From Pseudomonas nitroreducens TX1 (GTDB lineage Bacteria; Pseudomonadota; Gammaproteobacteria; Pseudomonadales; Pseudomonadaceae): a stretch of 64,000 bases of DNA. Position 1 is the first letter of the stretch. Each line of letters begins with the position of its first letter. This document shows positions 40,690-46,009 of this stretch, one piece after another. The stretch spans positions 1-64,000 of the forward strand of contig NZ_AMZB01000088.1 of NCBI RefSeq assembly GCF_000313755.1. The letters run 5' to 3'. The position numbers and the translations under genes were made by a program. Under the pieces are notes generated by a model that was not told where the DNA came from, did not search any database, and worked only from the letters and a program-made list of their open reading frames with translations.

Positions 40690-40760
40690 TGCAGTGTTCC
40701 TTCTTGTGGTTGGCGGTCGGCGCCGGGTCGGTGGACTGTGCGCTGCCGTTGATGGCTGCA

Positions 40761-40770
40761 TTGTATACAA
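40761..40770. promoter_or_regulatory. GntR-type operator TTGTATACAA upstream of puuE
   Basis: Perfect palindrome 72 bp before the puuE start. Identical to the copies before uacT and hiuH. Confidence 0.7.
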
Positions 40771-40954
40771 AATGTTAGGCGGTCTGTAAATACAATCTGC
40801 GCAACGGTCGTTTCATTCCGTCCCTCCGTGTTCGATAGGGCGTGGATGCCTTGCGGGCTCTGCTCTGGCGCGGCCCTGGCTGGCTGTGTGCGGGCTCTTG
40901 CCATTCCTGGCCAGAGGGTGCTACAGGGGCTTTTTGGCAGGTTGAATCAGTTTT

Positions 40955-40964
40955 TTGTATACAA
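40955..40964. promoter_or_regulatory. GntR-type operator TTGTATACAA upstream of hiuH
   Basis: Perfect palindrome 136 bp before the hiuH ATG, in AT-rich sequence that could hold the promoter. Confidence 0.7.
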
Positions 40965-41062
40965 TCAATTGTGCCGCTGGGTATATTCGCTTCTACCAAA
41001 CGTACCCGCGGGCTGCTTCGATGGCGGCCCGCTCATTCGCATCAACAAGACAGAGGAGGAAG

Positions 41063-41095
41063 GTGTCGGCCGGCTCCGCCGCAGGACACCGATAA
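41063..41095 (+). other. Possible 10-codon leader ORF coupled to hiuH
   Basis: GTG at 41063 follows a strong Shine-Dalgarno GAGGAGGAA and opens a 10-codon frame (MSAGSAAGHR) stopping 4 nt before the hiuH ATG. The hiuH ATG itself has no Shine-Dalgarno site. GGTGTC (41062-41067) can pair with GACACC (41085-41090). Whether it is translated is unknown. Confidence 0.35.
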
Positions 41096-41099
41096 GCCC

Positions 41100-41453
41100 A
41101 TGGGACGCCTGACCACTCACGTACTGGATTCCGCCCACGGCTGCCCTGGCCACGGCATCAAGATCGAGCTGTACCGCGTCGAAGGCCAGCAGCTGGAGCT
41201 GATCACCACCCGCGTGACCAATGACGATGGCCGTTGCGACGAGCCGCTGCTGCAGGGCGAGGACTTCCGTGCCGGCGTCTACCAGCTGCTGTTCAATGCT
41301 GGCGACTACTACCGCGCCCGTGGCGTCGAGCTGCCGAAGCCGGCGTTCCTCGACCAGGTCGTGCTGCGCTTCGGCATTGCCTCGGAAAGCGATCACTACC
41401 ACGTGCCGCTGCTGATCTCCCCCTACAGCTATTCGACTTACCGGGGCAGCTAG
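41100..41453 (+). CDS. hiuH: 5-hydroxyisourate hydrolase (transthyretin-related)
   Basis: This 117-aa enzyme hydrolyses 5-hydroxyisourate to OHCU. The N-terminal LTTHVLDSAHGCPG with catalytic His, the Arg in TNDDGRCDEPL and the C-terminal signature SPYSYSTYRGS are all intact. No signal peptide, so it is cytosolic. It links PuuD and UraD in the pathway. The start codon lacks its own ribosome site; see the upstream leader ORF. Ends before a strong terminator. Confidence 0.95.
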   Translation: MGRLTTHVLDSAHGCPGHGIKIELYRVEGQQLELITTRVTNDDGRCDEPLLQGEDFRAGVYQLLFNAGDYYRARGVELPKPAFLDQVVLRFGIASESDHYHVPLLISPYSYSTYRGS

Positions 41454-41497
41454 TCCCCGCCCCGGTCTTCCCCCGGACTCTTCGTGGAGTCTTCCTC

Positions 41498-41525
41498 AGC
41501 CCGCCCACACTGCGGGCTTTTTTTT
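41498..41525 (+). terminator. Terminator after hiuH
   Basis: Stem AGCCCGC/GCGGGCT around CCACACT is followed by eight T. Confidence 0.9.
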
Positions 41526-41612
41526 GCGCGCAACTTTACCTTCCAGCGCAGAGGCAGGCGCGATTCGAGGATTTGAGCTAGAAATCAGGCAGTTATTATT
41601 TCGAGGGATGTC

Positions 41613-43406
41613 ATGAGCAAGATTCTGATCGTCGACGAGCAGCCGGTAACACGCCATGCCTTGCGGCTGATGATGGAGGCTGATCGGCACGAGGTCGTGG
41701 GTGAGGCCGACAATGGGCCTGAAGCATTGCAGCAGGTGCGCGCCTGTCGTCCCGACCTGATGATTCTGGAGCTGTCGATTCCTCGGCTCGGGGGGCTGGA
41801 GGTCATCCAGCGCCTGGTCGCACAAGGTGCGACAGTGAAAGTCCTGGTGCTGACCTCGCGAGACTCGGAGTATTTCGCCGGTCGTTGCCTGGCGGCGGGT
41901 GCGGCTGGCTTTGTCAGCAAGCAGGAGAACCCCCAGGCAGTGCGTGAGGCGGTGCGGGCGATCGCCCAGGGGCACAGCTATTTCCCCAGCCATGCGCTTG
42001 GAAGCGTCGCTATGGCGGAGGAGGTAGGCCATGGTGATTTGCTCAAGGAGCTATCTGTCCGCGAGTTGACCGTGCTGCAGTTGCTGGCGGGTGGGCTGAG
42101 CAACGTGGCCATTGCCGATCAGTTGTCGATCAGCGACAAGACAGTGAGCACCTACAAAGTACGCCTGATGCAGAAGCTGCACGCCAAGTCGCTGGTCGAG
42201 TTGGTGGATATCGGGCGCCGCCACGGGTTGGTGGAGGGCGACACGTCCGACGCAATGGCGGAGCCGGCTCCCATGTCGGCGGCGCAGACGAAGGAGCTGG
42301 TGCTGCTGCGCAATATGCTCGATGCACAGCCCCATCCCATGACTGTCCGGGGGCTCGATGGCCGCATCCTGTTCTGCAATCGCCATACGTTGGAGTTGCT
42401 TGGGCTTCAGTTGGAGGATGTGGTAGGCAAGATGGTGGCCGACCTGGGGTTGTTCGCCAGCCCTCACGAGGCAGAACTACTGGGCCGGCAACTGAGAGAC
42501 GCGATCAGTCGTGGTGAACCCTTTGACGCGGATGTGGAGTTTCGCTCGCAGAACGGGCGCGAGGTCTACCAGCATTGGGTCCGGCCTTACCGCGACAGCG
42601 AGGGAAATCTGATGGGCGCGTTGTGTGGCTCGATCAATGTCACCGGGCGCGACGAATTGGTACGCGAACTGCGTAGCGCGAACGCGCGGGTCGATGCAAT
42701 CAGCCGTGGCAAGAGCCAGTTCCTGGCCGGTATGGGCAGCGAATTGCAGGGGCCCTTGCAGAATGTCCTGGCGATGCTGGAACTGGCGCGAAACCAGAGT
42801 GATTCGGCGCGCCGTGACGAACCCCTGGCGGTAGCGCTGAAGCTGACCGGCAACCTGCTGGCGCTTCTGGATGACCTGCAGTTGCTCAGCCGTGCCAAGT
42901 CCCGGCGCTTGCCGTTGGCGCCCGAGGACATCGATGTACGGGCATTGCTCGAACGACAACTGGAGCTCGTCGGCGATTCTGCCCGGGCCAAAGGGATCCG
43001 CCTGGAGACCGATTTCGGCCTGGCCTTGCAGACACGCGTCTGGGGCGACCCGCAGCGACTGCGCCGGGTGATATTCAACCTGCTGGATAACGCCGTGAAG
43101 CACACCGAGGTCGGGACGGTGCTGGTGCGATTGCGCGCGCGGGGGCAGGGAGCGGCGATGGTCAACGTCGAGATCGATGTCGTCGACACCGGTTCGGGAA
43201 TCTCGGTTGAGGATCAGCAGCACCTGTTCGAGCCGTTTTCCTTCCCGTTGGAGGACGCGCGTGTACGTAGCGGAGGTACCGGCCTCGGCCTGGCCTTGTG
43301 CCGCAGCCTGGTGGAATTGATGGGCGGGCAGATTGATGTGAAGAGCCAGCCTGGCGTCGGCTCGGAATTCAATGTGCAGCTCTCGTTGCCTGCTGCCGCG
43401 CACTAG
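41613..43406 (+). CDS. Fused LuxR-type response regulator and PAS/histidine-kinase-like protein with both phosphosites replaced
   Basis: This 597-aa soluble protein has, in order, a receiver (3-120), a LuxR/NarL helix-turn-helix (147-205; LSVRELTVLQLLAGGLSN, SDKTVSTYKVRLMQKL), a PAS domain (about 228-345), a HisKA-like dimerisation helix pair (365-430) and an HATPase domain (445-592). The receiver keeps Asp8, Thr81 and Lys103 but has Glu53 where the phospho-accepting Asp belongs (LMILELSIP). The HisKA segment reads FLAGMGSELQGPL, so Ser376 replaces the phospho-accepting His of MSHELRTPL. ATP-binding boxes are intact (NLLDNAVKHT, DTGSGIS, GGTGLGLAL). A single-chain DNA-binding protein controlled by ATP or PAS ligand rather than phosphorelay is a reasonable inference. 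It stands alone inside the purine cluster. Confidence 0.88.
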   Translation: MSKILIVDEQPVTRHALRLMMEADRHEVVGEADNGPEALQQVRACRPDLMILELSIPRLGGLEVIQRLVAQGATVKVLVLTSRDSEYFAGRCLAAGAAGFVSKQENPQAVREAVRAIAQGHSYFPSHALGSVAMAEEVGHGDLLKELSVRELTVLQLLAGGLSNVAIADQLSISDKTVSTYKVRLMQKLHAKSLVELVDIGRRHGLVEGDTSDAMAEPAPMSAAQTKELVLLRNMLDAQPHPMTVRGLDGRILFCNRHTLELLGLQLEDVVGKMVADLGLFASPHEAELLGRQLRDAISRGEPFDADVEFRSQNGREVYQHWVRPYRDSEGNLMGALCGSINVTGRDELVRELRSANARVDAISRGKSQFLAGMGSELQGPLQNVLAMLELARNQSDSARRDEPLAVALKLTGNLLALLDDLQLLSRAKSRRLPLAPEDIDVRALLERQLELVGDSARAKGIRLETDFGLALQTRVWGDPQRLRRVIFNLLDNAVKHTEVGTVLVRLRARGQGAAMVNVEIDVVDTGSGISVEDQQHLFEPFSFPLEDARVRSGGTGLGLALCRSLVELMGGQIDVKSQPGVGSEFNVQLSLPAAAH

Positions 43407-43444
43407 CGACGATCGCTGCCCCATGAAAATCCAGGCTCCATGAA

Positions 43445-43472
43445 GAAGGCCCCTTGATCGGGGCCTTTTTCA
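43445..43472. terminator. Bidirectional terminator
   Basis: Stem AAGGCCCC/GGGGCCTT around TTGATC with TTTTT on the + strand. On the - strand the tail after the stem is TCTTC. It lies between the fused regulator and the convergent purine permease. Confidence 0.82.
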
Positions 43473-43489
43473 TGGGGCAGGGTCAGGTC

Positions 43490-44836
43490 TTACAGGAAGA
43501 TGAACTTCGCCACAAAGATCGCGCACAGCGCATAGAGGCTGATGGTCACGTCCTTGTGGCGGCCGGTGAAGACCTTCATCGCCACGTAGGTCACGAAGCC
43601 CAGGGCAATGCCGTCCGCGACCGAGAAGGTCAGCGGCATCATGATCACGGTGACGATGGCCGGGATGGTTTCGGTGTGCTCGTTCCAGTCGATATGGGCC
43701 ATGCCGCCCATCATCAGCATGGCGACGTAGATCAGCGCGCCGGCGGTGGCGTAGGCGGGGATCATGCCGGCCAGCGGGGCGAAGAACATCGCCGCGACGA
43801 ACAGCACGCCCACCACCACGGCGGTCAGGCCGGTGCGGCCACCCGCGGCAACACCCGCGGCACTTTCCACGTAGCTGGTCACCGGCGGCACGCCCAGCAC
43901 CGCGCCGAAGGCGCTGGAGGTGCTGTCGGCCTTCATCGCCTTCGACAGGTTTTCGATGCGGCCGTCCTCACGCACCAGGTGAGCACGCTGGGCGACGCCC
44001 ATCAGGGTGCCGGCGGTGTCGAACATGTGCACGAAAAGGAAGGCCAGGATCACGCTGATCATGGTCACGTTGAACGCGCCGGAAATGTCCATCGCCATGA
44101 AGGTCGGCGCCAGGCTCGGCGGCATCGAGAACACGCCGCCGAACTGGACGATACCCAGGGCGATGCCGGCCACGGTGACGGTAAGGATGCTGATCAGGAT
44201 GCCGCCGAACACGCGGCGGTATTCCAGTACGGCGATCATCAGGAAGCAGATGGCGGCGAGCAGCGGGCCGGGGCTGGTCAGGTCACCCAGGTGGACCAGG
44301 GTGGCGGGGCTGGCGACCACGATGCCGGCGGTCTTCAGGCCGATCAGCCCGAGGAACAGGCCGACGCCGGCGCCCATGGCGAAGCGCAGGCTGACTGGGA
44401 TGCTGTTGAGCAGCCATTCGCGAATGCGCGAGAAGGTCAGGATCATGAAGGCGATACCGGAGATGAACACCGCGCCCAGCGCGATCTCCCAGCTGTAGTT
44501 CATGGTCTTGACCACGGTGTAGGTGAAGAAGGCGTTGAGGCCCATGCCCGGCGCCAGGCCCACCGGCCAGTTGGCGTAAAGGCCCATCAGGAAGCAGCCG
44601 AGCGCCGCGGCAAGGCAGGTTGCGACGAACGCGGCGCCGTGGTCGATGCCGGCATCGGCCATGATGTTGGGGTTGACGAAGATGATGTACGCCATGGTGA
44701 TGAAGGTCGTGAGACCTGCGGCGAGTTCGGTCTTCACGGTGGTGCCGTGCTGGCTGAGCTTGAACAGGCGTTCGAGCAGGCCGGTGGCGGGGGGACTGGA
44801 TGCAAAGGCTCGTTGTTCTTGTTTGGTGCTTTCCAC
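43490..44836 (-). CDS. Purine (adenine/guanine/hypoxanthine) permease, AzgA/GhxP-like NCS2
   Basis: This 448-aa inner-membrane transporter has 12-14 helices. Diagnostic segments are AGLTTFITMAYIIFVNPNIM, GLAPGMGLNAFFTY and the ADSTSSAFGAVLGVPPVTSY/ESAAGVAAGGRTGL region that binds the base. It imports oxopurines with protons. I use the GTG at 44836, preceded by GAGGAG, giving MESTKQEQRAF. An operator-like TTGTGTACAA lies 137 bp upstream and a divergent gntR follows, consistent with purine-responsive control. Confidence 0.92.
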   Translation of the reverse strand: MESTKQEQRAFASSPPATGLLERLFKLSQHGTTVKTELAAGLTTFITMAYIIFVNPNIMADAGIDHGAAFVATCLAAALGCFLMGLYANWPVGLAPGMGLNAFFTYTVVKTMNYSWEIALGAVFISGIAFMILTFSRIREWLLNSIPVSLRFAMGAGVGLFLGLIGLKTAGIVVASPATLVHLGDLTSPGPLLAAICFLMIAVLEYRRVFGGILISILTVTVAGIALGIVQFGGVFSMPPSLAPTFMAMDISGAFNVTMISVILAFLFVHMFDTAGTLMGVAQRAHLVREDGRIENLSKAMKADSTSSAFGAVLGVPPVTSYVESAAGVAAGGRTGLTAVVVGVLFVAAMFFAPLAGMIPAYATAGALIYVAMLMMGGMAHIDWNEHTETIPAIVTVIMMPLTFSVADGIALGFVTYVAMKVFTGRHKDVTISLYALCAIFVAKFIFL

Positions 44837-44972
44837 AGCGGTACTCCTCAACGCTCTTGTTGTTGGTCCCTTGCCGTCGGCTGGTTCACCTGCGTCCCTT
44901 GCGCTAACGGAAAGAGTTGTGAGGGTGTGAATGTTGACCTTTGGGTCAGGAAGTCACGCCGCGATTATGCAG

Positions 44973-44982
44973 TTGTGTACAA
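44973..44982. promoter_or_regulatory. GntR-type operator TTGTGTACAA upstream of the purine permease
   Basis: One base from the perfect palindrome TTGTATACAA found at three other sites in this cluster. Confidence 0.6.
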
Positions 44983-45132
44983 AAAGTTCAAATAATGTTT
45001 AGTGTCTGTCTGAAAGATTTTTACAAGAAAAGCATCGGAATGGTCGCACGCTGAACTTCGCCAAGCTCCTGCACCGTGCGGCCTTGGGATGGATGCCGAG
45101 TCGCTCGCGACGGCTGCACGATAGTGGCCACT

Positions 45133-45142
45133 TTGTGTACAC
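45133..45142. promoter_or_regulatory. GntR-type operator TTGTGTACAC upstream of gntR
   Basis: Two bases from TTGTATACAA, 91 bp before the regulator start; probable autoregulatory site. Confidence 0.45.
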
Positions 45143-45232
45143 TGTGCCCCATGCCTGGCCCGCGGCCAGCTCCACGTAAAGCCCCCACGGATTTCGCGCC
45201 GGTTCAACCCGGCTGAACAGGGTTCGACTCCG

Positions 45233-46009
45233 ATGACCGACCAGTTGCAACAGATCAGGAAGCAGCCGCGCAATGGCAAGGCGCGCAGCGGCACTCAGGA
45301 CGAGATCGTCTACGCGCACATCTTCGACGCCATCCTCGAGCAGCGCCTGGCGCCAGGCACCAAGCTGAGCGAAGAGGCCCTCGGCGAAATCTTCGGCGTC
45401 AGCCGCACCATCATCCGTCGTGCCCTGTCGCGCCTGGCCCACGAACAGGTCGTGCTGCTGCGCCCGAACCGTGGCGCCGTGGTGGCCAGCCCGAGCATCG
45501 ACGAAGCCCGGCAGATTCTCTTCGCCCGCCGCACCGTCGAGCGCGCGATCACTGAACTGGCGGTGGACAACGCCAGCAGCGACACCCTCGCCGAACTGCG
45601 CGACATGGTGAAGCAGGAGCAATCCAGCTTCGCTCGTGGCGACCGCGGCGCGGGCATCCGCCTCTCCGGCGAATTCCACCTGAAGCTTGCCGAGATGGCG
45701 AAGAATGCACCGCTGGTGGTATTTCAGCGCAGCCTGGTCTCGCAAACCTCGCTGATCATCGCCCAGTACGAAAGCGGCGGCCGCTCGCATTGCTCGTTCG
45801 ACGAGCACAACGAGATCCTCGACGCCATCGAGAAGGGCGACAAGGAAAAGGCCGTGACCTTGATGATGCACCACATGGCGCACATCGACGACAAGCTGAA
45901 CCTGGACGTGGATGGCGCCTCCGGCGACCTGCACGCGGTGTTCTCGCATCTGCTGGCGGGCAAGAAGAAGCCGCGCCGCAGCAAGGCGGACGCCGACTCG
46001 GCGGCCTGA
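45233..46009 (+). CDS. GntR-family regulator with FCD domain, probable purine-catabolism regulator
   Basis: This 258-aa protein has a basic, flexible start, a winged helix (IVYAHIFDAILEQRLAPGTKLSEE ... FGVSRTIIRRALSRLAHE) and an all-helical FCD effector domain with metal/ligand residues (GEFHLKLAEMA, SFDEHNEILDAI, MMHHMAHID). FCD regulators usually repress and release DNA on ligand binding. It lies in the middle of the purine genes, divergent from the purine permease, and five matching palindromes surround it. Ligand unknown; urate, xanthine or allantoin are candidates. A lysine-rich tail (KKKPRRSK) follows the FCD domain. Confidence 0.9.
   Translation: MTDQLQQIRKQPRNGKARSGTQDEIVYAHIFDAILEQRLAPGTKLSEEALGEIFGVSRTIIRRALSRLAHEQVVLLRPNRGAVVASPSIDEARQILFARRTVERAITELAVDNASSDTLAELRDMVKQEQSSFARGDRGAGIRLSGEFHLKLAEMAKNAPLVVFQRSLVSQTSLIIAQYESGGRSHCSFDEHNEILDAIEKGDKEKAVTLMMHHMAHIDDKLNLDVDGASGDLHAVFSHLLAGKKKPRRSKADADSAA

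Follow-up and report, generated by a model that had tools for sequence, protein, structure and literature searches.

In Pseudomonas nitroreducens TX1, a gene lying between hiuH and a purine permease gene encodes a DNA-binding response regulator fused to a kinase-like half in which both phosphotransfer residues have been replaced. The initial annotation of this DNA proposed that such a protein might act as a one-component switch in which a PAS ligand or the ATP state alters DNA binding, and named as one counter-case that the protein could be a decayed copy. The locus raises the question whether the losses belong to a single protein or to a lineage, and, in the latter case, what such a lineage might respond to and which genes it might control. 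In the following, the window denotes the whole stretch of DNA that was analysed, 64,000 nucleotides from contig NZ_AMZB01000088.1 (positions 1 to 64,000; assembly GCF_000313755.1).

Domain architecture of the window regulator

The gene is a single open reading frame on the forward strand that runs from an ATG at 41613 to a stop at 43406 and encodes 597 amino acids (41613..43406). Pfam places along this one chain, all on the same strand, a receiver domain (REC; Response_reg, residues 4-115, 41622..41957), a GerE/LuxR-type helix-turn-helix (HTH; residues 146-199, 42048..42209), a PAS domain (residues 232-338, 42306..42626), DHp/HisKA-like helices (residues 367-430, 42711..42902) and a HATPase domain (HATPase_c, residues 478-592, 43044..43388), which bears out the domain order that had been read from the translation. 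The Response_reg, GerE, PAS and HATPase_c matches exceed their Pfam cut-offs, and the HisKA match, at 22.9 bits, lies below the cut-off of 26.9. No Pfam match to an SBP or Hpt domain was found in the protein.

Inspection codon by codon agrees with the residues that had been assigned to the receiver, where Glu53 (codon 41769-41771) replaces the phospho-accepting Asp while Asp8, Thr81 and Lys103, together with Glu9, are present. In the DHp helices Ser376 (42738-42740) stands where the His is expected and is followed by a retained Glu377 (42741-42743). The ATP-binding boxes, described as intact, are indeed so in the translation: the N box carries Asn493, the G1 box is DTGSGI (residues 525-530) and the G2 box GGTGLGLAL (residues 554-562), with Asn493 and Asp525 verified at the codon level.

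Compared with established classes, the N-terminal half has the receiver and GerE HTH of a NarL/FixJ (LuxR-HTH) response regulator with no phosphorylatable Asp, as in pseudo-receivers. The C-terminal half has the N, G1, F and G2 boxes of a HisKA kinase on a kinase fold whose phospho-accepting His is missing, as in pseudo-histidine kinases; the position four residues after the lost His (H+4), where the Thr or Asn characteristic of kinase phosphatase activity would stand, is Gly380. Being one chain, the protein also departs from the layout of the Roc, Bvg and Evg systems, in which a separate regulator is paired with a kinase of the unorthodox type that carries a periplasmic SBP domain as well as REC and Hpt domains.

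Distribution and phylogeny of the family

A search of the genus with the window protein gave a match at E <= 1e-100 in 18 of 25 genomes, its own included, and a search with P0002, a paralogue that this genome encodes on contig C104, likewise gave matches in 18 of 25 at 1e-60. Across the taxonomic family, 27 of 398 genomes from 3 of the 19 genera matched at 1e-75, in a search that scored the top three candidates per genome and may have missed more distant members. At the level of the class, P0002 matched 1 of 369 genomes, which is its own. The domain order, which had been called unusual, was found in 9 of 390 genomes, all from the window's own family, and 4 of these 9 match solely through separate large kinases; the HTH and the kinase half share one reading frame only in five Pseudomonas loci (L009-L013), among 80 of the 147 loci found. 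The family members found thus come only from the window's own taxonomic family, that is, from Pseudomonas and close genera.

Removal of duplicates left 72 distinct members, the window protein included, all chosen for covering the greater part of the query. In a midpoint-rooted FastTree tree they separate into clade A, which contains 35 proteins including that of the window (support 0.958), clade B with 18 including P0002, clade C with 14, and 5 others. P0002 itself (G000:C104:47914-49599; 5915-7603 in L240) has Asp53 and the DHp His and no ATP boxes, and is encoded directly upstream of a 1524-aa autotransporter. A divergent further member (L288, 6364-8571, genome G022), with Ala at the phospho-Asp site and, by eye, no ATP boxes, lies beside a large autotransporter-like gene and was left outside the 72 and all counts.

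Conservation of the phosphotransfer and ATP-binding residues

Within clade A the DHp site never holds a His (0/35), being occupied by Ser in 11 members, Arg in 7, Asp in 7, Asn in 3, Ala, Glu and Gly in 2 each and Thr in 1. Site 53 is Glu in 33 of the 35 members and Asp in the other two (L176 and L178), and Thr81 and Lys103 are present in every one. Asn493, Asp525, Gly527, Gly529 and Phe539 are each found in 34 of 35, the sole exception being L188, which has lost the ATP boxes; Glu377, next to the lost His, is also kept in 34 of 35, and Asn489, the first Asn of the N box, is less conserved (21/35). The window protein is consequently not a lone decayed copy, and the loss of both phosphotransfer residues with the ATP site and HTH retained is a lineage-wide feature of these 35 members. 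Whether the two substitutions are fixed among homologues, which the initial annotation proposed to test, has a divided answer: the absence of His is constant in the clade and Glu53 nearly so, whereas Ser376, correctly read in the window protein, is variable even in the window's own group of 14 purine-locus members (10 Ser, 2 Asn, 2 Gly).

The control set consisted of the 20 proteins of this genome that best match the kinase half, with P0002 left out, and was thus picked by similarity to the window protein; 19 of them could be aligned, and all 19 have the His, Asn and Asp. Since the clade A pattern recurs over 35 members while the control kinases are intact, it exceeds what chance would give. 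A survey reports a missing His in 0.9% of HisKA domains and a missing Asp in 2.0% of receivers (PMC12632262), two rates that we did not multiply for the clade because its members are related.

Asn493 is absent from all the remaining members, namely from clade B (0/18; His in 1/18; site 53 Asp in 10 and Glu in 8), clade C (0/14; His in 3/14; Asp53 in 14/14) and the other five (0/5; His in 1/5; Asp53 in 3/5). Over all 72 proteins the His occurs in 5, never together with Asn493, so that no member looks able to autophosphorylate as far as its residues tell. Autokinase ability thus seems to be gone from all the lineages, from clade A through loss of the His and from the rest through loss of the ATP site and mostly of the His as well.

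Phosphotransfer might persist by another route, with Ser376 or another His as the acceptor, or with the ATP site of the window protein phosphorylating the His of the C104 paralogue in the manner of a split kinase. CheA3 and CheA4 provide a parallel for split kinases, and the paralogue, with Asp53 and a His on a chain lacking ATP boxes, would be a conceivable partner; a serine kinase function has moreover been reported for KdpD (PMC11018627). However, Ser occupies the site in just 11 of 35 members, no His is clade-wide in the DHp stretch, and Glu would not be expected to accept phosphate in the way of Asp, so that we give this route very little credence. Ser376 was rejected as a phospho-acceptor for its lack of conservation, and the split kinase with the C104 paralogue because the paralogue's His is found in only 1 of the 18 members of its clade.

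Origin of the fused chain

Outside the family, the best match to the kinase half in this genome lies in an operon on contig C116 (205.6 bits, next 149.8), and the best match to the regulator half lies in the same operon (189.2 bits, next 137.3). This operon encodes a regulator with REC and GerE domains followed by a kinase with SBP_bac_3, PAS, HisKA, HATPase, REC and Hpt domains; the latter order is that given for RocS1 (PMC12051241), and our label Roc for the operon rests on this domain order, not on orthology. Among the NCBIfam matches listed, no model reaches its cut-off for the window protein; the regulator half scores best against EvgA (146.9 bits, cut-off 251), but with the kinase half EvgS (119.1 bits) is outscored by TorS (187.5), ArcB (160.6) and BarA (158). 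In a PDB sequence search EvgA was again the best regulator match, the PAS domain matched the BvgS PAS chain 6zj8, and chains of RetS and DivL were among the matches.

When eight Roc-like operons, each with the Asp, His, Asn and Asp intact (8/8), were added as a joined outgroup, the 72 members fell together (branch support 0.697). Because both halves best match the two partners of one EvgAS/Roc-like operon, we infer that the regulator arose when a Roc-like response regulator became joined to the cytosolic portion (PAS-DHp-CA) of the kinase encoded next to it, and one ancestral fusion would be the simplest account. Although each half is related in sequence to the Roc (RocA1/RocS1), BvgAS and EvgAS systems, the regulator differs from them as one fused chain with no periplasmic sensor, REC-Hpt relay, phospho-His or phospho-Asp.

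Selection on the kinase-like half

Among the 14 purine-locus orthologues of the window's group, mean identity is 91-92% in REC and HTH, 67% in DHp, 58% in CA and 48% in PAS, the lowest of the named domains. Over all pairs, with pS saturated, pN/pS amounts to 0.59 for PAS, 0.40 for DHp and 0.49 for CA, compared with about 0.10 for REC/HTH. The closest pair gives dN/dS values of 0.12 for PAS, 0.10 for DHp, 0.08 for CA, 0.01 for REC and 0.06 for HTH, and six other pairs give 0.04 to 0.46 for PAS, DHp and CA, so that all seven pairs stay below 0.5, rough as these values are with dS being high. Judged by these ratios, purifying selection acts on the kinase-like half in the most closely related pair.

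Conservation in the CA domain is concentrated at the nucleotide pocket. With L188 set aside, clade A conserves 8 of the 12 canonical ATP-site columns to at least 90%, compared with 18 of the 110 remaining CA columns (Fisher p 0.00044, for a set of 12 columns chosen after the first conservation results were known); the same 12 columns reach this level in 0/12 cases in clade B and 2/12 in clade C. Of 66 DHp columns in clade A, three do so, Glu377, Met388 and Asp421. In HisKA kinases the acidic residue at H+1 is described as the general base in autophosphorylation, and the Thr or Asn at H+4 as governing phosphatase activity (PMC8292422). A phosphatase role was rejected for the window protein, as the H+4 motif is gone (Gly380; Thr in 1/35 and Asn in 0/35 of clade A). 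The base Glu377, kept without its His, is in our opinion the most suggestive clue that ATP may still be used.

The same data could be read as a working REC-HTH that drags along a slowly decaying kinase-like tail, with PAS domain and ATP pocket devoid of a role. As divergence in the C-terminal half outpaces that of REC and HTH several times over, relaxed constraint is a genuine partial alternative for this half, and the sister clades B and C did lose the ATP site. Set against this, the 72 members keep the frame open through the C-terminal half (truncated ones would have been missed by our selection), dN/dS remains under 0.5 in the seven pairs, and conservation is focused on the ATP boxes; we thus consider a roleless tail rather improbable.

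Genomic neighbours of the family

An adhesin-type match lies within 6 kb of 47 of the 52 non-purine members (clade A 14/15, B 17/18, C 11/14, others 5/5), with queries that were drawn from the family neighbours themselves and with cases that are not independent, as orthologous loci share neighbours and the counts ignore kinship; several unlike adhesin classes are nevertheless involved. The corresponding figure is 0/20 for the purine-locus members, four of which (L089, L106, L107 and L109) have flanks of about 1.5 kb a side, and 0/20 for control GerE/LuxR-type regions of this genome, which cover 21 of its 23 other GerE loci and of which five, at contig ends, are shorter than 12 kb. Pfam analysis of nine representative neighbours identified three YadA/ESPR-type trimeric autotransporters, a classical autotransporter, a TPS-domain protein, an usher, an Ig-repeat protein with a VWA domain, a ShlB-type transporter and a hybrid kinase. 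An autotransporter beta-domain was found within 8 kb of at least 23 of 73 places, among the 150 matches listed, as opposed to about 1.3% for a random site. Roc regulators have been described to control fimbrial genes and lepBA (PMC12051241, PMC3083521), which fits the adhesin-type neighbours of the family. From these neighbours we infer that the targets of the family are surface-adhesin genes, often the next gene.

A Roc-like regulator is encoded within 6 kb in six clade A loci and a Roc-like kinase in five, where the kinase gene immediately precedes the family gene on the same strand; in clade C, a weak match to a Roc-like kinase lies near one locus (L168). This proximity could mean that the protein is an accessory modulator of an intact Roc/Bvg-type system, forming mixed dimers through its DHp with a real kinase, or through its REC-HTH with the response regulator of that system, and tuning the system in the manner of pseudo-kinases such as DivL. 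RetS acts via mixed dimers with GacS. The homology of both halves to Roc-like partners and the presence of RetS and DivL chains among the PDB sequence matches are consistent with such a role, as is the report that DivL keeps its kinase boxes in spite of having no His (PMC4211667). On the other hand, the flanks of 29 of the 35 clade A members, the window included, contain no Roc-like regulator (within at most 6 kb, and roughly 1.5 kb on either side in four cases), the DHp is poorly conserved with 3 of 66 columns at 90% or more, and the strongly conserved HTH would be needless for a pure modulator. We regard this role as unlikely.

The purine locus

The flanking reading frames confirm that the gene sits between hiuH (41100..41453, forward strand) upstream and the convergent purine permease gene (43490..44851, reverse strand) downstream, both named as in the initial annotation; the permease we take to be of the NCS2 type. 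Other neighbouring genes are referred to by the presumed names puuE, uraD, allA and LysE. A terminator-like hairpin with a T run follows hiuH (41498..41518, forward strand) and is kept among orthologous loci, in a scanned stretch where two such sites were found and 1.2 expected. As the hairpin sits between hiuH and the regulator gene, the latter is probably its own transcription unit. The upstream stretch at 41573..41607 (forward strand), seen in an alignment of 17 upstream regions, contains TTGAGCTAGAA at 41573-41583, which is alike in most but not all of the 17, and GAGGG at 41603-41607 ahead of the regulator ATG; it is a candidate promoter. A scan of 41350-43600 gave no site for a sigma-70-type promoter, and an Rfam scan of 40700-45300 returned one match, far below its gathering score.

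Just ahead of the hairpin lies a GACTC-TTCGTG-GAGTC repeat (41476-41491), at which there is no Rfam match. The repeat is present in the window and in all eight listed loci with the regulator at this site. It was rejected as an operator, being also present in four of six regulator-less loci (L209, L210, L211 and L216; not L212 or L213) and, among the adhesin-type family loci, matched as the pattern GACTC-N6-GAGTC only in L183 and L229, with different inner bases.

The 20 purine-locus members belong to two groups, 14 in that of the window and 6 tandem copies in three genomes; the node that unites them encloses 34 members and is weakly supported (0.31). The tandem copies are clade A pairs (L179, L180 and L181) near the same purine permease, with hiuH in the examined stretch only in L180; a LysE-like gene adjoins the tandem regulators in L179 and L181. 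Two non-purine copies, L175 and L176, are nested in the tree with the purine-locus members, one of them beside an Ig-repeat adhesin. L176 (4849-6615), a clade A protein with Asp53 amid Glu53 proteins, adjoins an Ig-repeat protein with a VWA domain, and its Asp looks like a change from Glu. Eight genomes lacking the regulator at this site were examined: in two the gap between hiuH and the permease gene is 239 and 310 bp, four carry another gene there, and in two the contigs end too early. The replacing gene (L209, L210, L211 and L212) resembles, by eye, a LysE-type transporter gene and is the one that also adjoins the regulators in L179 and L181.

The position invites the idea of a local purine sensor whose PAS domain binds urate or a purine and which controls the surrounding urate-degradation genes. 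In the window's group, eleven of 14 members (ten loci and the window) lie between hiuH and the permease gene by direct match, the other three, with short flanks, show the end of hiuH upstream and a permease match, and the second subclade also adjoins the same permease. Nevertheless, the hairpin separates hiuH from the regulator gene, the urate genes persist where the regulator is absent, and PAS has the lowest conservation of the named domains (48% mean identity) while eight neighbours in ten purine loci (urate-cluster genes, two permeases and a GntR-like gene) are 90.7-100% identical to those of the window; an efflux-like gene further out is 87-95% identical. We hold a purine sensor to be quite doubtful, and the special purine link that the position seemed to imply finds no support, given the preceding hairpin, the urate loci without the gene and the adhesin-type genes that are the family's usual neighbours. 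No adhesin match was obtained for the window copy across the whole 64 kb, and the gene is absent or replaced at this site elsewhere; purine control is therefore not supported, and the window copy is likely an orphan at the purine locus with targets elsewhere.

Proposed mode of action and relation to known systems

Taken with moderate confidence, our preferred reading is that the window protein regulates transcription independently of phosphorylation, is predicted to bind ATP, and belongs to a family whose targets are probably adhesin genes. Glu53 would hold the receiver in a phosphorylated-like state and the DHp helices would form a lasting dimer, while the PAS domain with its ligand and the ATP-bound CA domain would serve as the input; docking of CA on DHp near Glu377 would alter how the two HTHs meet DNA. 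The outputs would be adhesin promoters, with the window copy probably acting on targets elsewhere. Glu is described as the commonest replacement of the phospho-Asp in pseudo-receivers, and the same source states that in some of them the residue at this site has been shown not to play an activating part (PMC12632262). A bolder version, which we deem improbable, is an ATP-driven switch in which ATP may be hydrolysed with water via Glu377 at H+1 and the ATP/ADP state of a dimer joined to a phosphomimic receiver times binding to adhesin promoters; if true, an ATPase of the GHKL type would here be coupled straight to an HTH.

To our knowledge, the pseudo-receivers RitR, ChxR and HP1043 have no kinase-like half, and DivL has no DNA-binding domain. 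The three pseudo-receivers resemble the window regulator in joining a receiver without phospho-Asp to a DNA-binding domain (PMC12632262, PMC4395418), to which the window regulator adds a PAS domain and a predicted ATP-binding fold. DivL shares with it a PAS domain and a kinase fold with the usual boxes and no His (PMC4211667), but acts on a separate response regulator. One-component HTH-PAS regulators such as FG214 (PMC13060918) likewise unite a sensor and a DNA-binding domain in one chain, whereas the window regulator also keeps receiver, DHp and CA domains. We recognised no description of such a regulator in the open-licence PMC literature, as judged by titles and the beginnings of abstracts; pseudo-receivers and pseudo-kinases are known, and within that scope no clade was described in which both are fixed in a single DNA-binding chain that keeps its ATP site.

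A 2025 perspective speaks of a mystery as to how pseudo-receivers are turned on and off (PMC12632262). In the present clade such a receiver is combined throughout with a pseudo-kinase in one DNA-binding chain, whereas the sister clades lost the ATP site instead, so that what ATP does in a phosphotransfer-dead regulator can be tested directly. More broadly, the findings point to a family of regulators linked to adhesins that exists alongside the Roc network already known.
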